Source: a virus. From it: DNA of 20,615 nt. The stretch is taken from positions 1 through 20,615 of IMG/VR virus record IMGVR_UViG_3300042402_003094, one strand, 5' to 3'. A program made the translations under genes and the position numbers. Every line of letters starts with the position of its first letter. Within the stretch, counting starts at the first letter, position 1. The notes beneath the pieces were generated by a model, which saw only the letters and a list, made by a program, of their open reading frames with translations, was not told the origin of the DNA and did not search any database. Of the stretch, positions 216-12,198 are shown one piece after another.

Positions 216-223
216 TATTTATT
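216..223 (-). promoter_or_regulatory. T4-type late promoter (AATAAATA)
   Basis: The minus strand reads AATAAATA, which fits the NATAAATA late-promoter core of T4-like phages recognised by gp55 with gp33 and the sliding clamp. It overlaps the TAA stop codon of the gp5-like gene (TAA at 221-219). The partial ORF starting at 193 follows about 23 bases downstream. The match is exact, but an 8-mer this AT-rich can occur by chance. Confidence 0.55.
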
Positions 224-2687
224 TGGATTTTACAGTTATCTTTCCAACGCAATCAACAACAGAAATAATCTTTGTTCCCGGTGGTGGATCTAGAGTCGGA
301 TCAACTTCTATAACTTTAAATACTGGAATTAATTCAGCATTGAAACCAGTATCACTTTCGACAAATATTGTCGGTCTTGAATCAAAACCAGATGCAGTTT
401 TTTCAACTCTTACTCCAACCACTGCTCCATTTTTTACAATCGGTTTAAGAACAGCACCCCTATCAGGTTCAACTACTATCGTATCATTTTCAGTATAGTT
501 AAATCCAGGATCCTTAACGTAAACTTCATCCAACTGTAAAATAACAGGATATATTGGTAAGTTTAATAATGTTTCTCTCTCGCTTGGCGTAAGTTGTGGT
601 ATACGACTTACTGCATTTTCTCTTTCTATCGGATTAAGATTTGGTAAATTTTCTAATCCTGGAATTTCTAATAAGGTTTCAACATCCCTTGGTGCTGGGG
701 GTGCTGTAATTGTAATTGGTCGATTTACTGGGAATTCTACTCCAGCAGGAATAGTTAAATCATCAATTATTACTGGAGATGGAACTTTAACAAAATCTCC
801 AGGATTTAATTCGATAGTGGTTCCTGGATTTACTGGAGGGAAATAAGTTCCATCTGCACCTTTTTTATAAGATTGATCTCTTTTTTTCCATACTCTACCA
901 GATCCACCTTCAGATCCATCTGGAGATATTAAGTAATTGGCACCAGATTCAACAATAACGATATTTTCAATACTCTTAATTGGTTCTCCCGCACTATTTG
1001 TAGAACTAGTCTTACTCATAATAGGAACAGCTGCCGCACCACCACCAGTTCCACAAGAATCGTTAATAGAAACAATTGGATCTGCCGTAAATCCACCTCC
1101 CCCATTAAGGAGATCGACAGCAAGAACTTCACCAGTTGCTCCAACCACAACATTTCCTGAAGCACCACTACCACCAGAACCAAAAATACTCAATGTAGGA
1201 GCACCACACCCAATAGGACCAATGCCACAACCACTTGCAAGAGATGTGAGTGCATCTCCTGCGCCACCAACTAAACCACCAATATCAAGATTATTTGCAT
1301 TAAATGCTCCAGCAGCATCAGATGCTGCTTGTGCTGCGGATTGTCCAATTGCTTGTGCTTGATTAAAAACAGACTCAATACTAACTGGACCGCCACGATT
1401 ATCTCCAGGACCACTCCAAGTGCTCCACTGATCTAATGTTGGGCAAGATAATTCCTCTTCACAACTAAAAAGACCAAAAATCTTTTTAATAATCGAAAGA
1501 ATTTGTCCAGCTAAATTTGCAGCTGCCCCAACTGTTTGTAATATTGCATTGATTGGTTGCAGAATAGAATTTATTAATCCAGAAATAAATCCGGCAACTC
1601 TCCCTACAATTTCACCAGCAACACCTTCAGCCAAACATACTGGAGCATTGATTGCTTTATTAACTAAGTTTTTTAATTGATTTCCAACTAATGCTAATAA
1701 TCCTTGAATGATTTTATTAATAGCACAAGAAAGAAGGTCTAGGGTTTTATTTTGTGCTTCTTTTACTGCGGGTCTTAAATTTGGAAAGAAAAGGAAATAT
1801 GTATCTTTTACGATATTGTTAACTTTTTCTATAACCGATTTTCTAACTGCTTCTACAATATTTTTAATTTTTGAAGTTACAAATGTAATCGCATCAGTAA
1901 CGGCATTTTCAATTCTTTTTTGTAGTTTATCAATACGACCAGTTAGTTGTGTACTAAAATCTGCACCGAGTTTTGTTAAGTTTTCGACAGTCTTAATCAA
2001 TTTTTCAATATCAGTGGAGATTCCCTTTATGTCATTTCTACCACATCTGGTAGTTTTTGACATCGGATACTGCATATCGCCATCCATTTTGGCCTGAGTA
2101 TCTGCTATTGATCCCAGACCTGATGTTAAACCTTGAGGATTTTCACTAACACCAGTGAATTGATTTCTTGTTTGCCCTGGTTGTTTTACTTGAACTGCTG
2201 AGGTTTTCTCATTAGTATTTTTAATGGTTGTTACTGATACTTTCTGGTTTTTAGTATATCCACTAAAAGGAAGAAATCCAACTTCTGGAATTTTCTTTTC
2301 AAGAGCAGTTTGTTGATTATATCCCAATACGCCCATAATAACTGGTTGCTGAGCATCTTCACCATCAATAAAGAATCCGAACACAAAACTTCCTTGACGA
2401 AGTTGTGCTGATGTTGATGCTCCAGCAGATCCAGCTCCTGCAGTCACTGGATACATTACAGTTGCCCAAGGTAATTCATCATCGCTCAAATCTTTAAGAT
2501 TGGCGGTGTGATACCCCATTATTCTGACTTTATATCTTTCACCGAATCCTGGAATTTCTCCAGTATTATCAACTCTATATCCAAGAATATTATCTTGCCA
2601 CTTAGTTTGGTCTACTACTTGACCAATCCACCAAACAAAACCATCTCTTCCTACAAAGTGTTTTTGGAATAACTGTTCTTCAATCAT
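219..2687 (-). CDS. 5: gp5-like baseplate hub / tail spike protein without a lysozyme domain
   Basis: The first ~120 residues look like the T4 gp5 N-terminal OB-fold that joins the gp27 hub: FVGRDGFVWWIGQVVD, then IPGFGERYKVRIMGYH, then a segment ending in a GxFVFGFFIDGEDAQQPVIMGVLG strand pattern. The rest differs from T4 gp5. There is no recognisable T4-lysozyme domain and no octad triple-beta-helix repeat. Instead residues ~220-410 are long amphipathic or hydrophobic helices. After a Gly/Ser-rich linker, the C-terminal ~300 residues are beta-rich, with GxxYTxxPxVxI-type repeats and a Pro-rich stretch. At 822 residues it exceeds T4 gp5 (575). It overlaps the preceding CP12-like gene by 8 bases, suggesting translational coupling. 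The name rests on the OB-fold and on neighbouring gp27; a cell-wall-cutting role is not supported by what I see. Confidence 0.8.
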   Translation of the reverse strand: MIEEQLFQKHFVGRDGFVWWIGQVVDQTKWQDNILGYRVDNTGEIPGFGERYKVRIMGYHTANLKDLSDDELPWATVMYPVTAGAGSAGASTSAQLRQGSFVFGFFIDGEDAQQPVIMGVLGYNQQTALEKKIPEVGFLPFSGYTKNQKVSVTTIKNTNEKTSAVQVKQPGQTRNQFTGVSENPQGLTSGLGSIADTQAKMDGDMQYPMSKTTRCGRNDIKGISTDIEKLIKTVENLTKLGADFSTQLTGRIDKLQKRIENAVTDAITFVTSKIKNIVEAVRKSVIEKVNNIVKDTYFLFFPNLRPAVKEAQNKTLDLLSCAINKIIQGLLALVGNQLKNLVNKAINAPVCLAEGVAGEIVGRVAGFISGLINSILQPINAILQTVGAAANLAGQILSIIKKIFGLFSCEEELSCPTLDQWSTWSGPGDNRGGPVSIESVFNQAQAIGQSAAQAASDAAGAFNANNLDIGGLVGGAGDALTSLASGCGIGPIGCGAPTLSIFGSGGSGASGNVVVGATGEVLAVDLLNGGGGFTADPIVSINDSCGTGGGAAAVPIMSKTSSTNSAGEPIKSIENIVIVESGANYLISPDGSEGGSGRVWKKRDQSYKKGADGTYFPPVNPGTTIELNPGDFVKVPSPVIIDDLTIPAGVEFPVNRPITITAPPAPRDVETLLEIPGLENLPNLNPIERENAVSRIPQLTPSERETLLNLPIYPVILQLDEVYVKDPGFNYTENDTIVVEPDRGAVLKPIVKNGAVVGVRVEKTASGFDSRPTIFVESDTGFNAELIPVFKVIEVDPTLDPPPGTKIISVVDCVGKITVKSK

Positions 2688-2892: not shown

Positions 2893-4182
2893 TTAACTTA
2901 CCTTACCTGAAAATGAATCTCTTACGAGAGTAAGACTTGTAAAAGTGTCTTTTGGAGTAATTCTATGACATAAACTAGCAATCATATACTTTCCTTTAGT
3001 TTGCATATTTGGTTTTTTATTTTCAATTTTTGCAAGATCTGGGAAATCACACTCAATCATATCCCCCGCATGAAGACTGAAATCTCCTGGAATCATAATA
3101 TGAGTCTTAATGCTATATAGCTGATTATATCTCATAATTGATTGAACCATCGTTGTTGGTGCATCAAAATTAGGATCTGTTGGTTTTGCTTTCCAATTTT
3201 TTAACTGCTCTTTTGCATCTTTTCCGGATGGTAGTGTTCCTAAATCTAATACATGATTCATAAATCGTGTTGGAATTTGCCTAAATTCCTTATCGACGAA
3301 CAGAATATTATCAGCAGCAAGTTCAATTTTTGATTTTTGATCTTTTTCTAGTGAATAATTTCTCACTTGATAATCCATTGCATAAAAATCAAAGAAAATA
3401 CTACGATTATTATACATTCCCAATGACATATTTTGTTGTAAATCTATATTTCTATCAATTTTAACATTGATAATTTTTCCATCATATCCTTCTGGTGTTT
3501 TTGTGGAATTTGTATAGATATATTTTTTCTTTGGTTCTTGTTTTAAAAGAACATCAATTGATTTAAACTTAAATGCTTCACTTGTTTCATACATGAAGTA
3601 ACCAGCTGCTCCGCCGATTCCTTTTTCCGGAACTGCCTTTGATGCTAACCAAGTGCAGACATATAATGGTTTTCTATCATTTCCTATAAAATTATAATTA
3701 ACACCCGTCTTATCAATATCTAATTTCTTTTTAACTTGCAATCCTTTTGGATCGGTAAGTATTTTCCTAACTGATGCTGAAATATCTCTTTCAAATCTAG
3801 TAACAACTCTCGATTGTTCATTAGCAATAAATTCTTTAGTGCAAAAGTCTAACATATAAACATCATTTGAAGTTCCTGGTGATGAACTATTAACGCGATT
3901 GACATATAATTCTAAACTAAGTGTATTTGGTTTAGATTGATTATCCTCGATAACCAATTCTACAAACTCACCACCACGAATTGGAAGACCATCCAACAAT
4001 CCTATCATTTCCTTCTGGTTTGGTTCTAAACCACCAGATTCAGCAATAATAGCAGTCGCTGAAATTGTATTTGAAAGCACATTTTCATAATATTTAATCT
4101 CAGGTGAAACCTGACTAATATCTTTTGACTTAACTTCAAACTTTTTTATATTGCCCGATAAGGCGGCTTCATTACTTGCCAT
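2893..4182 (-). CDS. 27: gp27-like baseplate hub protein
   Basis: This 429-residue protein has the pattern of a tail hub subunit (T4 gp27 / late control D fold). The N-terminal beta-domain contains GLLDGLPIRGGEFVELVIED, followed by a YVNRVNSSSP...YMLDFCTKEF segment. There is a central domain, and a C-terminal beta-domain with IPGDFSLHAGDMIECDFPDL, a GD-type turn typical of hub proteins. T4 gp27 has 391 residues, so the size fits. Its position next to the gp5-like gene matches the gp27-gp5 hub complex, where gp27 forms the torus gripping the gp5 OB-fold. The start ATG overlaps the stop of the 1252-residue gene (TAATG). The CP12-like ATG directly follows its stop. Assignment rests on fold-like patterns and context, not on strong residue identity. 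Confidence 0.7.
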   Translation of the reverse strand: MASNEAALSGNIKKFEVKSKDISQVSPEIKYYENVLSNTISATAIIAESGGLEPNQKEMIGLLDGLPIRGGEFVELVIEDNQSKPNTLSLELYVNRVNSSSPGTSNDVYMLDFCTKEFIANEQSRVVTRFERDISASVRKILTDPKGLQVKKKLDIDKTGVNYNFIGNDRKPLYVCTWLASKAVPEKGIGGAAGYFMYETSEAFKFKSIDVLLKQEPKKKYIYTNSTKTPEGYDGKIINVKIDRNIDLQQNMSLGMYNNRSIFFDFYAMDYQVRNYSLEKDQKSKIELAADNILFVDKEFRQIPTRFMNHVLDLGTLPSGKDAKEQLKNWKAKPTDPNFDAPTTMVQSIMRYNQLYSIKTHIMIPGDFSLHAGDMIECDFPDLAKIENKKPNMQTKGKYMIASLCHRITPKDTFTSLTLVRDSFSGKVS

Positions 4183-7100
4183 TAGATTTTGTACATTGAA
4201 GATGAGATTAATTGTCTGGAGACCATTCCATAACTATTTACCATACCATCAACAAAAGATGGTGTATATCCACTACCATTCTTTCTTATTGGTTGCATGG
4301 ATTGTCCACCAGGACTTTGGATAAGCATAATCATTCCATTTGATTTATCGTAAGATGCTGTTTGACTTAAGTTGGGTATTGACGATTTAATTGCAGGATC
4401 CCCAAGAACTTTGTAATTCAATGCAAAATCAGATATTTGTGCTGCTGGTGGAGCACTTGGTGCTCCAGGAGCACCTGGAGCAGATCCAGAACCTGGCGCT
4501 GATAAATCTGTTCCAGATGGTGCTAAACCAGCACCTTTAAATTCAAAGTGTCCTCCGTGGCTTCCTGGATAATCATTAGCAACCCAACCATAATTTCTAC
4601 CATTCTTTCTAATCCAAGAATTAGAACCACCATGAATATCCATTGCAATTCCAGACATATGGAGTGATCCACTCGCTCCCCCAACTGCTCTATTTTTTTC
4701 TGGACTTCTCTTACTGCTTGAAACATCTGATGCTTTAACTTTTCCACCAGAATCTTTCATCATTTTATAGAAAGCTTCAGCAGCACCCTTACTAAAGACT
4801 ACAGGTCTTCCTTGCTCATCTTTGGCACCTTGAATGGTATATCCAGGTCCAGTATCCCAAATACCTTTTGTGGAAATAATTCCACTTCCACCACCTCTAC
4901 CACCTTTAGCTGCTGCAGGATCCCCAAGAACTTTATAGTTTGCTGCGAAATCTGATATTTGAACTCCTTCAGATGGTGCAGATGGGGCCCCTGGAGATCC
5001 CGAAGATCCTGGACCTGCAATTGATGGATCTGGTTGTATAGATCCACCGAAAGGAGATTCCTTATTATATTTTGATAAAGGATTGAATCTAGAAAGAACT
5101 GCTGATTTTGGCATTCCATTATCTCTTGGATTCGTTGCTGCTTCCCAATGCAGGTGAGGTCCACTAGAAAGTCCAGTGCTCCCCAGTGGACCCAAAATAG
5201 TTCCTTTCTTAATTTTTTGACCACGCTTAACATACGCGGGTTTATCCATGTGCGCATAAAAATGCCCAATTCCCGTATTATCAATCCAATTGACCCAATT
5301 ACCATAATTACCTTGATTTCCAGTTGCTTCAACAACACCATCGGTAAATGCTTGTAGTGGTTCTCCTCTTGTTCCCGAAATATCAACACCCATATGCATT
5401 CCAGGAGACAATGCAAAATTTCGCATTCCCATATCTGATGTGACTTGATGATTTCCACCCATTGCTAAGAATGGAACTTTGTGGCGTTTTATTCCATTTC
5501 CACCACCTTTACCACCATTTTTACTAGGATTTGATGCAATATCTGGAGGAACATTTCCACCGGATTTAACTTTAGCAAGGGCTGTTTTAATTTTTTCTGG
5601 GGTCATAGAACTTCTTTGACCTGGATAATAAAACTTCCCTTGAGCGTTTGGTAATGATGCAAATTCCTGCGACAACCCCTGCATAAACCGATCATCACTC
5701 ATTTCACCTTTCAACCATCTTCTACCACCTCTGTTACCTTCTATATTAACCTTAGTAATAATTAGATCTTGGTTTTTTGGACTAAAAAGATCTTTATCAG
5801 GATTTAACCCAGCCGCTTTTGCTCTACTAATCAGATATTGTGGTAATTGTTGATATTTTCCAACAGCACCAGTTGCTCTTCTGGCAACTTCGGCAATCGT
5901 CATTTTAGTAGCACCTTTTAATGTAGTGCTAGGATACATTGCTTCATAATTTCCACCAGATTCTTTGCCGGCGATCAAATCAAGAAGTGGCCCCCATTGA
6001 CCTTCAGATATACCACTGCTAGGTGCAGAAGTGCCATCATCAGCACCACCTGGAGGTCCACCGCCAGGTTGCGCTTCTTCTTTCTTTTCCTGTAATAATT
6101 TAAATTGATTTTCTTGAGATTTTACATCAACAAATATTTTTTTCTTTGCCCAATCTGTTAAATTCTTACTAAATTGTCCGATTATTCTTTTATTAAATCC
6201 TGGAACGCTAAATTCATCATTTTTCAAAGCAATACCAATTGAGGAACCAATAGATTCTGCAATTGCATCTGTTCTTGGTTTAGATACTTTTTCGCCTAAA
6301 CTAATATCCAAACCAAGTTTCATTGCCTCACCGATGAATGGTATAGCACCATAAGTTGAAGAAAGATTTGCAAATCTCTTTGCACTCTCTTCATCTTTTA
6401 AAATGGTTCCTTTTGCTTTTTTCAGTGTTTGTGGAGATATTGCAGATGAACCAGTTGTTTTTCTTTGAATACTTGTAGATCTTGATAAAGTTCTTTTTGA
6501 TCCTCCACCTCTTATATTAATTTGACCACCATATGCTCTTCTCTCAATAGGATTTTCCTTATCGGCTTCAGCGACTCTTCCTGTTAAATTTTCATATATT
6601 TTTTTACCAGCCCATTCTCCAATTCCAGCACCAACAAATCCACCAACAGCAGCACCTACAACTGGAATTGGAATCAATCCCTGTCCTATAGCGCCACCAA
6701 TACCAGCACCTAGAGTTGCTCCTATTGCTCCAACTATGGCACGATCTAGTTTCTCACCTAAAGCAAGATCAATACCAATTCCAATCAGAGCACCAACAAC
6801 AGGAACTCTCTTAAAGATTTTAGAAAATGATTTAAATCTTTTAACTATTCTAGCAGTAGAATTTAATGCACTACCTGCTGCACCTGCTGCTTTACCTGCT
6901 AGTCTAGCAGCACCCTTAGCAGCACCTTTTACCCCTTGCTCTAATGCTTCACCACCTACTCTTTGGACTAAAGATTTTAGGGGACCTTTAACCAGATTAA
7001 AGATTACTCCACCCGCTTTTTTGAATAGATTTCCTGCGATTCTTCCTGCTTTTAATAATAACTTACCAATCAGTTTGGCAGGAGGACCAATAATTTTTGA

Positions 7101-7940
7101 AGTTAATTTTGCAATAAACTTAACTTGTTTCGGAAATACCGTCGTTAATGTAATAATTCCAAGTTTTAATGCATTCCAAGTGTTAGTAAGTCCTTTTCCA
7201 ATGTCTTTAAACATCTGAAGAATCATTGGACCATTCTTCAGAAGAATATTAAGCAGACTTCCTATTAGAACATTTAATAGGAATCTTTTGATCATATCAA
7301 AAAGACCAACCTTCGGAGCAGTTATTCCTAACTTTTTCTTCTTCTTAGTATCTTTCTTTTCTTCTAGATTTTTTTCTTGTTCTTCTGCTTTCTTCTTTCT
7401 ACCTTCTATAAAGTTAAGGCGACTTTCCTCTTTTTGGTTGAGGAGTTTTTGTGTTGATATCTGTTTAACTTTTATAAAATCAACTTTTATTTGCTCAAGT
7501 TCTTGTAAAATTTCTCCGAGAACACCATCAGATTTAACTAATGCTCCACTTGGTTTCTTATCTTCAGTCTTAACCAAAGCACCCGATGAACTTTTAACTA
7601 TTGCTGAAGATCTTCTTAAAACTAATGCTCCCCCCTTTCCACCACCTTTTTTATTTTGTGGTATAAATTTTTTTGTTGTTATTTTTTTATCCTTATTTTT
7701 ATTTCCAATTAACCCAAATGCAGCAGACCTTACTACAGATGTTGCAAGACCTCTAACAGCTGCACCACCAACACCTCTTAATGCTCCACCAATACCACCT
7801 CTAACAGCCGCACCACCAACACCTCTAGCAACAGTTCCTCTTACTAATGCACCTCCTCCACCCCTAACAGCAGCACCAGCTGCGCCTCTAGCAGCTACTC
7901 CCGCAGCTGCTCTTAAAACTAAAGGAGCTAGAAATAACAT
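4182..7940 (-). CDS. Large virion protein with three cell-wall hydrolase domains; tape-measure candidate
   Basis: Order along 1252 residues: a Gly/Arg-rich repeat tract (~15-75); a charged Lys/Glu coiled region (~140-205); a hydrophobic FLLNVLIGSLLNILLKN segment shared with the 833-residue neighbour; several glycine-zipper hydrophobic stretches (~235-460), as in tape measure proteins; a lambda R / GH104-like lysozyme-fold domain (~645-780, with GKESGG, GKYQQLP, SPKNQDL and FASLPNAQGKF); an M23 LytM-type zinc endopeptidase (~828-935, HMGVD, GHFYAH, HLHWE); then an M15-like D,D-peptidase domain (~1020-1135, SLHMSGIAMDI and HGGHFEF). Key residues of all three look intact. The motif ISDFA(A/L)NYKVLGDP flanks the M15-like domain at both ends. 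The gene lies between the 833-residue gene and gp27, where T4 has genes 28-29. It probably acts in the tail lumen or hub, cutting peptidoglycan at DNA injection (inference). Confidence 0.8.
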   Translation of the reverse strand: MLFLAPLVLRAAAGVAARGAAGAAVRGGGGALVRGTVARGVGGAAVRGGIGGALRGVGGAAVRGLATSVVRSAAFGLIGNKNKDKKITTKKFIPQNKKGGGKGGALVLRRSSAIVKSSSGALVKTEDKKPSGALVKSDGVLGEILQELEQIKVDFIKVKQISTQKLLNQKEESRLNFIEGRKKKAEEQEKNLEEKKDTKKKKKLGITAPKVGLFDMIKRFLLNVLIGSLLNILLKNGPMILQMFKDIGKGLTNTWNALKLGIITLTTVFPKQVKFIAKLTSKIIGPPAKLIGKLLLKAGRIAGNLFKKAGGVIFNLVKGPLKSLVQRVGGEALEQGVKGAAKGAARLAGKAAGAAGSALNSTARIVKRFKSFSKIFKRVPVVGALIGIGIDLALGEKLDRAIVGAIGATLGAGIGGAIGQGLIPIPVVGAAVGGFVGAGIGEWAGKKIYENLTGRVAEADKENPIERRAYGGQINIRGGGSKRTLSRSTSIQRKTTGSSAISPQTLKKAKGTILKDEESAKRFANLSSTYGAIPFIGEAMKLGLDISLGEKVSKPRTDAIAESIGSSIGIALKNDEFSVPGFNKRIIGQFSKNLTDWAKKKIFVDVKSQENQFKLLQEKKEEAQPGGGPPGGADDGTSAPSSGISEGQWGPLLDLIAGKESGGNYEAMYPSTTLKGATKMTIAEVARRATGAVGKYQQLPQYLISRAKAAGLNPDKDLFSPKNQDLIITKVNIEGNRGGRRWLKGEMSDDRFMQGLSQEFASLPNAQGKFYYPGQRSSMTPEKIKTALAKVKSGGNVPPDIASNPSKNGGKGGGNGIKRHKVPFLAMGGNHQVTSDMGMRNFALSPGMHMGVDISGTRGEPLQAFTDGVVEATGNQGNYGNWVNWIDNTGIGHFYAHMDKPAYVKRGQKIKKGTILGPLGSTGLSSGPHLHWEAATNPRDNGMPKSAVLSRFNPLSKYNKESPFGGSIQPDPSIAGPGSSGSPGAPSAPSEGVQISDFAANYKVLGDPAAAKGGRGGGSGIISTKGIWDTGPGYTIQGAKDEQGRPVVFSKGAAEAFYKMMKDSGGKVKASDVSSSKRSPEKNRAVGGASGSLHMSGIAMDIHGGSNSWIRKNGRNYGWVANDYPGSHGGHFEFKGAGLAPSGTDLSAPGSGSAPGAPGAPSAPPAAQISDFALNYKVLGDPAIKSSIPNLSQTASYDKSNGMIMLIQSPGGQSMQPIRKNGSGYTPSFVDGMVNSYGMVSRQLISSSMYKI
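4395..4436 (-). repeat. ISDFAxNYKVLGDP motif, copy 3 (C-terminal)
   Basis: Codons here encode ISDFALNYKVLGDP near residue 1170 of the 1252-residue protein. It is one of three near-identical copies in the two large adjacent virion genes. It follows a Gly/Ala/Pro/Ser-rich linker and precedes the C-terminal ~70 residues. Nucleotide sequence differs from the other copies mainly at silent positions. Confidence 0.9.
4917..4958 (-). repeat. ISDFAxNYKVLGDP motif, copy 2
   Basis: Codons encode ISDFAANYKVLGDP near residue 1000 of the 1252-residue protein, between the M23 and M15-like domains. It is preceded by a flexible Pro/Ser/Gly linker. The 14 residues are identical to the copy in the 833-residue protein. 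Confidence 0.9.
7750..7826 (-). repeat. Two 29-bp direct repeats, 48 bp apart
   Basis: The stretches at 7750-7778 and 7798-7826 differ at one base (t/c). They encode the doubled RGVGGAAVRG unit in the Gly/Arg/Ala-rich N-terminus of the 1252-residue protein. Further diverged copies extend on both sides. This looks like internal tandem duplication in a low-complexity coding tract. Confidence 0.8.
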
Positions 7941-7943
7941 TTC

Positions 7944-10445
7944 TTATAAACCTCCCCACATATTATAGATTGAAGCAACAACTGCCAAGGTTGCTTCATC
8001 TTCTCGGAATGAACTAAACACTGTCTGGTTATTACTTCCACCATTTGAAGAACCTGTCATCATAGGTGTTTGATTTTTTGCCGGCAATGGTAACGCTGCT
8101 ATTGTTGGTTTGTTTGATGGTGGTTGTGGTATGTTTTGCTTTGGTTTATCTGGGGGCATAACCATTGCGGGAGATGTGCCAACTGCCATCACTTTTTCAG
8201 CAACAAATTTATCTTTTGCTGCTCCAGATAATCCTAATTTATCTGCTTCCAATCTTGCTGCATTAGCAGATTTAAATTGCTCGGAATTTAAAGATTTATC
8301 TGGTCTCTGTCCAGGTGCTAATGCTCCAGGAGGATTCCCTGTCCCCGACTTATTATCAAGAATAGATTTTGCTAAATTTCCAGATTCTTTTTTTGATTCA
8401 TCTTTTTTAGATCCTGGAGGAACATATCCTGCTCTGGCAGGATCTCCAAGAACTTTATAATTTGCTGCAAAGTCTGATATTCCTACTGATGATGATGGTG
8501 CTGCTGATGAAGAACTTGAGTAAGATGAAGATCCTCCCGGAACATCAACCTGTTTTAGAGCAACATCTAATCCTTCTTTAGATCCTGGTAACTGAGAAGC
8601 ACCTTTTCTTGCAATAGCAAAATCTGCTGCTGCTCTTCTTGCATATTCTCTCGCTTTTTCAGGAGGAGCACCTTGTTTCATCCACTTCTCGTAAGTGGTA
8701 TTATATGCTTGCTTATATGCCCAATAGATATCTGCTTGAGGATCTACATTTACTTTTATAGGACCTACAAGTTTTCCAATGTTTCCACCAGACTCACTCT
8801 TAAAATGTTGAGATAGTGCAACAGAATTAATAACCATTTTGCCTTCTTGGCTACTTGGTTTAACCCCTGTTAATTGATCTCTAGCACCAAGTAGCATAGA
8901 TAATCCACCCAATCCAGCACCTTGAACTACTTTATTAATTTGTTTAACTGTGAAGTTTCCTGATCCTTCTTTCTTGTATGCGACAGTATATCTTTTTGCA
9001 GCAGCACCAGAACCAACATTTATTGATGTTTGATTTGATCCTTTAATGTATAGGTCGGGGTCAAATCCTATAGTTCCACCTTCATTTGCGGCTTGAATCT
9101 TTACATCTCCAAGAGAAGCAACATTTCTTTTGGATGATCCTCCAAACATTTTATTGATGCTATCTAAGTATGCAGGACCGCCCAACCAGTCTGCAGCACC
9201 ACCTTTTAATACATATTCACCATCTGATAATGCAGTTAGACGCTTATCTTGGCCAAGACCCTCAACATCATAAGCGGCTGTTTGCGAATTTACAATACCA
9301 CCTTCAGATGAAACTTTATCATTAAATGACAACTTCTTAGATTCGGAAGATTTTATAGGAGTGATTGGTCCTCCACCAAATTTTAATTGAATTGGTGGTC
9401 CTGATGGTGCTTGTTGTTGCTTTTTCTCACCAGTAATATCAGGACTTTGTATTTGTGGAGGTTCTGGTATATTTGGTGCTTGTGGTGCTGCCAGTTGAGG
9501 AGATCCTGGGAGCATTTTTAATGCACCATTTAGAATATCAATAAACCCTTTCAGTGCAGAGTTAATCATATCAATAAAACTTCTGACTGGTTGAACAACC
9601 ATAAAATCAATAAATTTTATGACATTATTAAAGAATCCTACAATACCATCAACCAATCCTTGAATTGGTTTTAATAGCATCATTGGGTTTTTTATAACCT
9701 TCAACAACCACATAACAATAGATCCTAACAGCACATTCAATAAGAAATTTCTAATCGTATCAAAAATGCTAGTGAAAGGTTTTGTTATTTTCTCAAGTAT
9801 TCCAGATCCTTTATCTTTGTCTTGTTTTTCTAGATCTTTTTCTTCCTGTTTCGCCTTTGTTTTTTCACCTTCTTTTCTCCTATTTTCGGTATTCTTTTTA
9901 TCAAGTCCAAGTTGCTTATTCAGAATACCAACCAAATCTTTAACAACAGATCCAATACCCTTAAGTGAATCAAGTAAATTTTTAAAGAAATCTGACAGAT
10001 CTTCCTTATCCTTTTGCTCCTCAGGTTCTGGAATTTCTGTTTTTACCTTTTTAAATGGTTGTATCGCACCACCAGATCCTGGCAAAAGTCTAGATGGATC
10101 TTTAATAGGTTTTGCTTTTGAGGTCTTTGATTTATTAATTACCTTCTCTGCTTTTACTGCTTTTGATTTTAACTTGAACTTTCCTTTATTTCTTTTTACT
10201 CTCTTGAATTCATCTATTAATACTGCTTGATTTTGAGATGTCTTTTTATCAGCAGGTTTCTGAGCTGCTTTCATATCAAGCTCAGTTAATTTTTCTTTGA
10301 TTAGAGTTTTATATTCTCCATATTCAAAGTCAAAGACATCCTCCAGACCCAAGAGTTTTAAAATTCTTGGGTCAATATCCTCCTCGACTAACTCCTCATC
10401 ATTAGCAGTTTGTTCGTATTGAGATTTGGAGGTGTCTGTTTCCAT
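7944..10445 (-). CDS. Large virion structural protein, paralogous in part to the 1252-residue protein; tape-measure or hub candidate
   Basis: The 833-residue product starts with an acidic helical region, followed by a Lys-rich tract (~70-120) and a charged coiled region (~140-215). Next comes IFDTIRNFLLNVLLGSIVMW with adjoining hydrophobic helices (~225-300), resembling the matching part of the 1252-residue protein. A Pro/Gln-rich linker follows, then a domain with LTALSDGEYVLKGGAADWLG (~405-440), a pattern common in phage tail proteins. Beyond a Ser-rich linker lies ISDFAANYKVLGDP (~656-669). No hydrolase motif was seen. The gene directly follows the gp26/53-residue frameshift pair, the position a tape measure gene takes in many tailed phages, and T4 has 27-28-29 here. 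The start ATG lies one base after the upstream stop. Function is inferred from position and composition only. Confidence 0.65.
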   Translation of the reverse strand: METDTSKSQYEQTANDEELVEEDIDPRILKLLGLEDVFDFEYGEYKTLIKEKLTELDMKAAQKPADKKTSQNQAVLIDEFKRVKRNKGKFKLKSKAVKAEKVINKSKTSKAKPIKDPSRLLPGSGGAIQPFKKVKTEIPEPEEQKDKEDLSDFFKNLLDSLKGIGSVVKDLVGILNKQLGLDKKNTENRRKEGEKTKAKQEEKDLEKQDKDKGSGILEKITKPFTSIFDTIRNFLLNVLLGSIVMWLLKVIKNPMMLLKPIQGLVDGIVGFFNNVIKFIDFMVVQPVRSFIDMINSALKGFIDILNGALKMLPGSPQLAAPQAPNIPEPPQIQSPDITGEKKQQQAPSGPPIQLKFGGGPITPIKSSESKKLSFNDKVSSEGGIVNSQTAAYDVEGLGQDKRLTALSDGEYVLKGGAADWLGGPAYLDSINKMFGGSSKRNVASLGDVKIQAANEGGTIGFDPDLYIKGSNQTSINVGSGAAAKRYTVAYKKEGSGNFTVKQINKVVQGAGLGGLSMLLGARDQLTGVKPSSQEGKMVINSVALSQHFKSESGGNIGKLVGPIKVNVDPQADIYWAYKQAYNTTYEKWMKQGAPPEKAREYARRAAADFAIARKGASQLPGSKEGLDVALKQVDVPGGSSSYSSSSSAAPSSSVGISDFAANYKVLGDPARAGYVPPGSKKDESKKESGNLAKSILDNKSGTGNPPGALAPGQRPDKSLNSEQFKSANAARLEADKLGLSGAAKDKFVAEKVMAVGTSPAMVMPPDKPKQNIPQPPSNKPTIAALPLPAKNQTPMMTGSSNGGSNNQTVFSSFREDEATLAVVASIYNMWGGL
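8439..8480 (-). repeat. ISDFAxNYKVLGDP motif, copy 1
   Basis: Codons encode ISDFAANYKVLGDP near residue 660 of the 833-residue protein, directly after a Ser-rich linker. The 14 residues are identical to those at 4917-4958 in the neighbouring gene. Confidence 0.9.
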
Positions 10446-10446
10446 T

Positions 10447-10608
10447 CTACTGCTGTGCTTGTTTTGCCCTTTCTTCTTCTAGATGCTGTTGAAGTAGAGT
10501 CACATAAATGTCCCTTTCCCAAGGAAGCATATTTTCAATCTCTGTTAATGAATATTTATGATACTGCATCAAGGCAAAATTAAGCTTATAGTAGTTCTCA
10601 AGGTCCAT
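10447..10608 (-). CDS. Small tail-assembly ORF after gp26 (gp51 / lambda T-like position), likely made as a -1 frameshift fusion
   Basis: The ORF runs from ATG at 10608 to TAG at 10447-10449 and encodes 53 residues, helical and charged, with YHKYSLTEIENMLPWERDIY. That pattern resembles the second part of tail assembly chaperones, in which a small Leu/Trp-rich peptide follows the main chaperone ORF. Its frame is open upstream of the ATG through CGG ATA GGA CTG GTC CAT back to a T TTT TTC heptamer at the end of gp26. A -1 slip there would give a ~297-residue gp26 fusion adding RIGLVH plus these 53 residues. Independent initiation at the ATG is possible, but no good ribosome binding site is visible and the ATG lies within a perfect palindrome. 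In T4 gene 51 follows gene 26, but T4 gp51 has 249 residues, so homology is not claimed. Confidence 0.75.
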   Translation of the reverse strand: MDLENYYKLNFALMQYHKYSLTEIENMLPWERDIYVTLLQQHLEEERAKQAQQ

Positions 10609-10619: not shown

Positions 10620-11339
10620 CTATCCGAAAAAACTGGATAATCCTTCAAGAACTACGGTGCTTTCAACTTCAGTCTTTGGATTTGTCAGTTTAACTTCGTG
10701 AGAAAGTTTTGGCATTGTTTCAAAGAACTTTTCAATTTGTTTGAACTGCTGAGAATTCATCTGATCCAAGAACTCACTAAGTTCTTTCTTTGTCACATCA
10801 GCAGTATCCCAAACTTCTTCTTCATTATAAATTTTATCAATACAAGATGCAATCAAATCAAAAGATTGATCCATACTATTGTTTGAACTAAAGTCAAAGT
10901 TTGATTTAATAAACTGATCCAATGAAGGATACTTCATTTCCATCATTAAATTGTTATCAATTTTAATCTTTGTTGTGTGCTCTTCATTCTTCTTGACTTT
11001 AATATCATCAATTAAAATCTTAACTTCAACGGGAGTTTCTCCATCATCAGGTGCAATCAAATTAACTTCAATTTCTTCCCCAACAGATTTTCCGCGAATG
11101 TTAAGGAACAAATATTCAATATCAAAGGTTGGTAAATTTTCAACCTTGATACTTTTAGATTGAATGCAATTCTTAATTACAGTCTTAATAGCAGTTGTAA
11201 TTTGCTTCATATCCTCACTTTCCAAAGCAAGAACAAGAAGTTTTTCTTCTCTAACTAAAAACGGTCTATATTTGATCGTTTCTCCAGTTGATGGCAATTC
11301 CAACTCATATGTTGGTGTAGAAATCTTTGGTAAAGGCAT
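10620..11339 (-). CDS. 26: gp26-like baseplate hub / tail assembly protein
   Basis: The 239-residue product matches the pattern of the T4 baseplate hub gp26 family: a start like KISTPTYELELPSTGETIKY, then YRPFLVREEKLLVLALES, LPTFDIEYLFLNIRGKSVGE and a helical C-terminal half. T4 gp26 has 208 residues and is needed for hub assembly. The last codons are AGT TTT TTC GGA TAG, carrying a T TTT TTC slippery heptamer immediately before the stop. The protein may therefore be made in two forms, gp26 and a frameshifted extension, like the lambda G/GT chaperones. A CATAAATA late promoter lies 27 bases upstream of its ATG, just after the gp54 stop. The tape-measure-like genes follow. Confidence 0.8.
   Translation of the reverse strand: MPLPKISTPTYELELPSTGETIKYRPFLVREEKLLVLALESEDMKQITTAIKTVIKNCIQSKSIKVENLPTFDIEYLFLNIRGKSVGEEIEVNLIAPDDGETPVEVKILIDDIKVKKNEEHTTKIKIDNNLMMEMKYPSLDQFIKSNFDFSSNNSMDQSFDLIASCIDKIYNEEEVWDTADVTKKELSEFLDQMNSQQFKQIEKFFETMPKLSHEVKLTNPKTEVESTVVLEGLSSFFG
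10626..10632 (-). promoter_or_regulatory. Candidate -1 ribosomal frameshift slippery heptamer (T TTT TTC)
   Basis: On the minus strand gp26 is read AGT TTT TTC GGA TAG, so the heptamer is correctly phased as X XXY YYZ. A one-base backward slip avoids TAG and enters the frame of the 53-residue ORF with no stop in between. It is followed 10 bases later by a GGTCC/GGACC stem. Frameshifting at this place in tail genes is well known (lambda G/GT and many other tailed phages). Confidence 0.7.
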
Positions 11340-11376: not shown

Positions 11377-12198
11377 TTAAAATGCAGGTCCAGATCTTCC
11401 TAAGAGATTGCCAACAGATCCACCAGCATTGCCGAATGGATTTACTGTTAAATTCTGTCCAGTCTGCCCAAGTTCTCCGTCACTATCAATTGCAACATTA
11501 TTAAATAGTGCATTAGAAGCAGCTTGGGATCTTGGATCTCCTGGAACATCTGGTGCTGGTCCAAATTCTGTCGTTCTTACATATCTTAAATATGTGAATG
11601 AGACAGTCGCTTTGAGAAGATCACTCCCCTCATATGAGACTGGAATGGAAACCAAATTTGTTGGAAATGCTCCAATGAATTGATATTTTAATGTTTTATT
11701 TGAACCACCTCTTGTTCCATAGTCCTTTTCAAATTTAGTGAGGAAAATATTGCATCTATAATCCTTTGGCCAATTCATTCTATAAAATGCAGTAAGATCT
11801 TTATACTGATCATTGGATAAAAAGCTTCCTTCACCAACAACATAATTCATCCAAGAATTTAAATAATCAATAACTTTATAATTATGATCTACGTAGAATG
11901 TTAAATCAATACTATCATCATAAATTCTGCGATATGCCATCTTTTCAGTCACACCATGATAATCATTAGTCACTTCGTGAGTTGCTAAACTTGATCCTGG
12001 TAAAGATGCTTCACAGCAAGAGATATTAATAATTTCACCATCAACTGCTTGATTTATTCCACGCTGAGCAATAAATGATTTTAAATTGGCATTAGTGCCA
12101 GTAAAAATGTCCACCATATAAACAGAAGTTTGTGCTGGTCTAAGCAACTTCTGTTTCAACTCAGACATTCTAAATTGCTTTGGGCCTGGTGTTGCCAT
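11377..12198 (-). CDS. 54: gp54 baseplate tail tube initiator
   Basis: The 273-residue product has the tail-tube-like fold pattern shared by T4 gp19 and gp54: ISCCEASLPGSSLATHEVT, MAYRRIYDDSIDLTFYVDHN, a WMNYVVGEGS segment and a KYQFIGAFPTNLVSIPVSYE strand leading to TVSFTYLRYVRT. gp54 sits on the baseplate and starts polymerisation of the gp19 tube. T4 gp54 has 320 residues. Its start lies back to back with the rightward gp4 operon; the rightward late promoter starts two bases beyond its ATG. A second tail tube paralogue is the main alternative, but the neighbourhood of gp26, gp48 and gp53 favours gp54. No clear ribosome binding site precedes the ATG. Confidence 0.8.
   Translation of the reverse strand: MATPGPKQFRMSELKQKLLRPAQTSVYMVDIFTGTNANLKSFIAQRGINQAVDGEIINISCCEASLPGSSLATHEVTNDYHGVTEKMAYRRIYDDSIDLTFYVDHNYKVIDYLNSWMNYVVGEGSFLSNDQYKDLTAFYRMNWPKDYRCNIFLTKFEKDYGTRGGSNKTLKYQFIGAFPTNLVSIPVSYEGSDLLKATVSFTYLRYVRTTEFGPAPDVPGDPRSQAASNALFNNVAIDSDGELGQTGQNLTVNPFGNAGGSVGNLLGRSGPAF

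Follow-up and report, generated by a model that had tools for sequence, protein, structure and literature searches.

It is still an open question how phage tail proteins fit several wall hydrolases into a single narrow hub. In the viral DNA record analysed here, a stretch of 20,615 bases from a marine T4-like phage that we call the window, two adjacent tail proteins, A and B, together carry three copies of one short peptide (the tag). Matched peptides of this kind were also found in related phages, and they suggest that the tag is an address peptide that gathers wall-cutting enzymes in the virus tail.

Proteins A and B belong to a tail hub gene cluster

The window encodes a T4-type tail hub cluster on its minus strand, in the order gp54-like, gp26-like, gp51-like, protein A, protein B, gp27-like and gp5-like. 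The order gp26-gp51-A-B-gp27-gp5 is likewise annotated in Kyanoviridae. Six of these genes are as follows.

219-2687, minus strand: gp5-like hub/spike protein, 822 aa
2893-4182, minus strand: gp27-like baseplate hub protein, 429 aa (PHROG 350; AlphaFold2 and Foldseek)
4182-7940, minus strand: protein B, 1252 aa, tail protein with peptidoglycan hydrolase domains and tag copies 2 and 3
7944-10445, minus strand: protein A, 833 aa, tail protein with weak tape-measure-like profile matches
10447-10608, minus strand: gp51-like small hub assembly protein, 53 aa (conservation; position as in annotated cyanophages)
10620-11339, minus strand: gp26-like hub assembly protein, 239 aa (synteny with annotated cyanophages; conservation)

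The AlphaFold2 model of the 429-aa neighbour at 2893-4182 (pLDDT 83) matched T4 gp27 in Foldseek (1k28_D and 2z6b_D, E ~1e-17), and the predicted fold of this protein is that of the T4 gp27 hub family. The best tape-measure PHROG matches of protein A were weak (E 0.0026-0.047), and those of protein B (best E 7.4e-10) fell on its M23 domain. In the phage S-CREM2, ORF208 and ORF209 directly precede the gp27-like gene and are syntenic with A and B, respectively. Both were detected in the S-CREM2 virion, with 73 unique peptides for ORF208 and 71 for ORF209, and were described by the authors as endolysins that may sit inside the capsid (PMC10665884). In S-CREM1, a related isolate, 14 virion proteins were reported (PMC9964418). 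For tape measure proteins, length in proportion to the tail would be expected; in a comparison with one phage, S-CREM2, which has a 418-nm tail, the A and B proteins of that phage are larger (1565 and 1456 aa).

Related phages are referred to below by record numbers (L-numbers), where L219 is S-CREM2 and L011 is the near-twin of the window phage. Several features of the DNA were observed in passing. At 7938-7946 of the window, the stop codon of A and the ATG of B are in frame with each other and separated by one codon. Seven repeats with a spacing of 15-24 nt, close to the 5' end of the B gene (7749-7913), encode a Gly/Ala/Arg-rich octad, approximately VGGAAVRG, and protein B of S-CREM2 (L219, 6185-10555) contains a long array of FQQSMGSVAPAGG-like repeats.

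One tag occurs three times in A and B

The tag pattern ISDFA(A/L)NYKVLGDP has three copies in the window, and none elsewhere in the 20.6-kb record.

8439-8480, minus strand: tag copy 1, ISDFAANYKVLGDP, protein A residues 656-669
4917-4958, minus strand: tag copy 2, ISDFAANYKVLGDP (the same 14 residues as copy 1), protein B residues 995-1008
4395-4436, minus strand: tag copy 3, ISDFALNYKVLGDP, protein B residues 1169-1182

When up to 3 mismatches were allowed, a degenerate DNA pattern matched three times in the record and not at all in the reversed control, and the three positions named in an earlier note on this DNA were confirmed to the base on the minus strand. The flexible linkers that it had placed before each copy were also found, being rich in Ser, Gly, Pro and Ala, and the two B copies do bracket an M15-like domain (Pfam Peptidase_M15_3, B residues 1073-1104). 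Its statement that the surroundings are not otherwise repeated holds only in part: A and B share a second, hydrophobic segment in their N-terminal third (PFTSIFDTIRNFLLNVLLGSIVMWLLK and PKVGLFDMIKRFLLNVLIGSLLNILLK, read in L011), and they therefore look like distant paralogues, but the tag lies far outside this segment. All window tags are internal, starting 84-258 residues ahead of the C-terminus, and protein A runs from a domain without a Pfam name through a Ser-rich linker to copy 1. In IMG/VR, a single additional contig had the exact pattern DFAxNYKVLGDP; this is the near-twin of the window phage, which again has three copies.

Related phages carry their own matched tags at the same sites

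The letters of the tag are thus private to the window phage and one near-twin, but the tag sites are not. At the corresponding sites, relatives carry a different peptide that is again alike within each phage, for example, KFAKSFIEVLGDP, SALTSGTIYGDP, ENQITEADYNFVIRGD and DFSKFAEILGDK, and the matched peptide of the isolate S-CREM1 is FDKLNVALGL. The tags of these phages are listed below.

L013, L014: KFAKSFIEV(L/I)GDP; third copy partly different
L016-L018, L102: (S)xALTSGTIYGDP
L015: ENQITEADYNxVxRGD
L114, L121: DFSKFxEILGDK
L020: EGSGVQQRYLDALESGRY
L140: EGGKxKQFYLDALADGSY
S-CREM1 (second group; further members L075, L077, L078, L079 and L145): LSDLAGVFDKLNVALGL and ITGLAETFDKLNVALGL, amphipathic and helix-like
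L151 (third lineage): LNEALAKFSEAMKSGK and LEEALKKFSEAMKQGK

Matched tags were found at the corresponding sites in 16 listed phages, a set that was chosen by the match itself and thus illustrates the pattern, the test being the 71-phage comparison described below. No matched tag was detected in A and B of S-CREM2. In half of the 16 phages (the window phage, L015, L114, L020, L140, L077, L079 and L151), the phage's own A-B similarity exceeded every A-A or B-B similarity to other phages. As expected, a close relative with the same tag type scored higher in the other eight (L013/L014, L016/L102, L069/L075 and L078/L145). The helical moment was high in tags of the S-CREM1 group (L069, L077, L078 and L145), and an amphipathic-helix signal was seen only in this group and a few others, with none in the window tag or the SALTSGTIYGDP tag. 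A single helix model for all tags was rejected, and one fold for all of them finds no support, since the helix signal is confined to part of the lineages. Separately, in the A gene of L111 (10814-11392), which closes with GNNSSSVSN repeats, an overlapping open frame is suggestive of a frameshift within the repeat.

This diversity bears on whether the tag could be a cleavage site that frees the enzyme cassettes at maturation or infection, either through a phage protease or through a labile Asp-Pro bond. The location of the tag between folded domains and linkers would suit such a role, and GDP(A/S) occurs in most clade I copies. However, L114 has GDK and the second B copy of L015 has GDA, so that both lack Asp-Pro, which is also missing throughout the S-CREM1 group, and a conserved viral protease would need no phage-private site. 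The prohead protease of T4 cuts at Glu-specific sites. Neither a site of this kind nor Asp-Pro self-cleavage could be retained as a candidate, because no residues are common to all lineages, and we consider cleavage highly improbable.

A and B match within a phage beyond the level between phages

For the test, 98 A/B pairs were reduced to 71 that share less than 30% of their 5-mers, dropping 27 near-duplicates. The score was the best short ungapped match of A against B in the last 55% of the proteins, with long BLAST matches masked pair by pair and short ones left in place. A score of at least 55 was obtained for 10 of the 71 same-phage pairs and for 42 of the 4970 cross-phage pairs. None of 50,000 permutations equalled the same-phage excess (p = 2e-5), and the top three same-phage scores exceeded all 4970 cross-phage scores. 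The best match in the window scored 68, a value reached by 0.26% of the 4970 cross-phage protein pairs. Among the matches listed, the highest cross-phage scores came mostly from hydrolase or membrane-domain fragments, together with L016/L102, which share a tag type. Two other measures were set aside because hydrolase domains common to A and B of different phages blurred them: comparison of the whole C-terminal parts, and comparison of the last 200 residues (4/71 beyond the 99th percentile, p 0.005; p 0.04 in a sum test).

The threshold was not reached by 61 of the 71 phages, including L077 (45) and L145 (38), both of which are still counted as tagged; the matched-tag device is therefore scattered and not universal. 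Furthermore, many untagged phages also have hydrolases in A or B. These results indicate that the tag is not required for such tails.

Residues are held while silent sites differ

Between the window copies, we counted 4-5 synonymous changes in ~9.6 synonymous sites and 0-2 nonsynonymous changes in ~32 sites. Copies 1 and 2 share all 14 residues and differ at 4 silent sites, and copy 3 has one changed residue (two nonsynonymous changes) and 5 silent differences. Across the tagged phages, pS between the copies of one phage was mostly 0.2-0.7 (0.11-0.15 in L020 and L140, up to ~1 in L014 and L151), and pN was mostly 0-0.17 (0.21-0.26 in L075, L078 and L151, ~0.35 for the third copy of L013 and L077), values that are rough because the stretches are short and that refer to stretches picked for matching. 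Since silent sites differ while residues hold, the match appears to be selected and not merely the product of a fresh duplication.

The copies might nevertheless be alike through recent duplication or gene conversion during cassette shuffling, being functionless in themselves. The low synonymous difference in L020 and L140 would fit this explanation, as would the clear shuffling of cargo domains between A and B of different phages. It is hard to square with the window, L016, L017, L102, L114, L069 and L079, where pS is ~0.3-0.7 at pN 0-0.17, or with the linkers flanking the tags, which have diverged between near-twins while the tags have not. We therefore regard it as improbable. Judged by these substitution patterns, the tag is in all likelihood kept by selection after copying, with the copies in L020 and L140 looking recent.

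The tag follows exchangeable domains, which are hydrolases where Pfam names them

The domains of protein B that bear on the tags are as follows.

5529-5999, minus strand: hydrolase-like domain, B residues 648-804, 73% identity to part of S-CREM1 A
5130-5399, minus strand: Peptidase_M23 (PF01551, E 7.5e-23), B residues 848-937, the cassette ahead of tag copy 2
4527-4856, minus strand: M15-type peptidase, B residues 1029-1138, between tag copies 2 and 3 (PF08291 core at residues 1073-1104, E 1.4e-6)

Wherever Pfam names the domain ahead of a tag, it is a peptidoglycan hydrolase (M23, M15, VanY, Amidase_2 or Hydrolase_2). M23 precedes the tag in B of L016, L017, L102, L020 and L140, and B of L014 and L015 has two M23 domains. 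L114 combines Hydrolase_2 in B with M23 in A, and L078 combines Amidase_2 in A with M23 in B; S-CREM1 and L077 have VanY in A, L079 has M15 in B, and the A protein of L151 has M23. Pfam gave nothing useful for A of the window, L015, L020, L140, L079 and L016 (in L016, a collagen-like repeat only), and it named no pre-tag domain in B of S-CREM1, L077 and L151. The B protein of S-CREM1 is annotated as NlpC/P60 in its record.

Two B tags are present in the window, L013, L014, L015, L016 and L102, and the other 10 listed phages have one. Each two-tag B has an extra hydrolase-like C-terminal cassette between its tags, which is M15, M23 or, in L016/L102, an unnamed domain with the pattern HxxGxAxDI, which we take to be M15-like. 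This cassette is swapped among close relatives (M15 in the window, a second M23 in L014 and L015) while both tags persist, and flexible linkers are present at all tag copies. As a further observation on cargo, the 73% identity of B residues 648-804 to the non-orthologous A of S-CREM1 points to hydrolase exchange between A and B across phages.

The earlier note had read the motif as a docking tag or a processing site and not as a leftover of domain duplication, and this reading survives in part. Protein-level identity over drifting silent sites speaks for a docking tag and against a duplication leftover, as do the recurrence of tags with other sequences at the same sites and their persistence while adjoining domains are exchanged. 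A processing site finds no support, as the lineages have no residue pattern in common. Absence from close relatives had been named as evidence against the motif; its letters are indeed absent from relatives with 85-86% identical gp27-like proteins, yet at the corresponding positions each of these phages has a matched peptide of its own.

Tag-tag pairing or a common docking partner

We looked for a third tagged protein in S-CREM1 (177,957 bp) and in four contigs of 159, 107, 70 and 62 kb and found none; in these records the tag is confined to A and B. In L077 (47.7 kb), whose tag differs, the S-CREM1 tag pattern was unmatched.

A partner could be a third virion protein (the hub, the tube or a chaperone such as gp26 or gp51) with copies of one docking groove that the tags fill, the partner changing with the tag. 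Copies 1 and 2 are identical at every residue and not just at hydrophobic ones, which would fit a groove, and encapsulation peptides reported to bind a shell groove (PMC11157265) offer a precedent. However, the tag of L013/L014 has a different front half from that of the window at each of the three sites, although gp27 (86/85% identity), gp26 (92/93%) and gp51 (92/96%) are conserved, which favours self-matching bundles. The near-twin L011 gives the reverse case: its tag is unchanged, while gp5 and gp54 have 77% and 83% identity to those of the window and contain hypervariable stretches. These parts of the two proteins were thus rejected as partners, since they change while the tag stays constant.

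Identity to the near-twin is only 38% over residues 201-250, at the C-terminal end of the gp54-like protein (window 11377-12198); in the gp5-like protein (219-2687), it falls to 50% and 40% in two stretches. An AlphaFold2 model of B residues 820-1252 (alignment of 10 sequences) had a pLDDT of 35, and was unusable and uninformative on the tag.

Taken together, the comparisons are easier to understand by tag-tag matching than by a conserved partner that follows the tag, although a small number of residue changes in gp27, or towards the N-termini of A and B, might have followed it. Tag-tag pairing accounts for the data with fewer assumptions than one binding partner, and we consider the docking groove rather unlikely.

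A model of matched tags

We propose that each copy serves as a co-assembly tag, private to the phage, at the end of a cargo cassette and gathers tethered domains at one place in the tail, a reading to which we assign a probability of about 0.5. It builds on the matching, the position, the selection on residues and the logic of the cassettes, from which we infer that the tags would bind, where they would lie in the virion and how they would act in assembly. Each cassette would take the form of a carried domain, usually a peptidoglycan hydrolase, followed by a flexible linker and the tag. The tags of A and B would have to match within one phage and be free to change between phages. Given this within-phage match and between-phage change, the most probable role of the tags is to bring the tethered domains together at one place in the lumen or hub of the tail, which could occur by tag-tag bundling, as in the encapsulation peptides of bacterial microcompartments (BMCs), or by copies of one docking site. 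In a bolder version, which we put forward tentatively and think doubtful as a whole, private self-recognising tags, which would have changed together at their two or three sites over evolution, would act as a filter: exchangeable wall-hydrolase cassettes would be sorted and co-assembled into the tail hub, and those lacking the phage's own tag would be left out.

For cassettes to be exchanged between phages, some compatibility rule is needed, and a matched, swappable tag would be one that can be read from sequence alone. The tag would also supply a short peptide pair for positioning enzymes in phage tails or tail-like particles, and the isolate S-CREM1, with Synechococcus CB0101 as its host, offers a system in which the rule can be tested.

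Comparison with known systems

No account of such matched tail tags was found in the parts of the published literature that were searched. Tape measure proteins such as that of TM4 are large tail proteins with wall hydrolases (PMC1796659). A and B resemble them in size and in their peptidoglycan hydrolase domains but, going by the description of the TM4-type proteins, differ in carrying matched tags in two adjacent proteins. In extracellular contractile injection systems, short signal peptides load effectors into a tail-like tube (PMC11495950); as described there, these signals are N-terminal on free effectors, whereas the tags are internal parts of structural proteins.

The capsid targeting sequence of T4 is one short sequence on diverse internal head proteins that directs them into the particle (PMC3012670). 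The tags are similar in that one short sequence is found on several virion cargo proteins of one phage. From what is described of it, the T4 sequence acts in the head and is conserved in T-even phages, whereas the tags belong to the tail, are internal near the C-terminus and change between phages. The T4 capsid targeting sequence is N-terminal. Its destination is the head scaffold core; by gene position, the tags lie in A and B between gp51 and gp27.

Encapsulation peptides were reported to form trimeric bundles with specific co-assembly (PMC12339742) and to bind a shell groove (PMC11157265). As far as these reports describe them, they are like the tags in being short, joined by linkers to enzymes and common to several cargo proteins, which they co-assemble, and the tags share the flexible linker to a cargo enzyme. 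In contrast, the tags are internal, lie in a phage tail operon without a shell and are private to a phage lineage; they are neither at a cargo terminus nor an address for a BMC shell. In addition, a BMC encapsulation peptide is an amphipathic helix of 15-20 residues, and helix character is seen in only part of the tag lineages. Encapsulation peptides are the nearest working model and, among phage precedents, the T4 capsid targeting sequence comes closest; the tag belongs to neither family.
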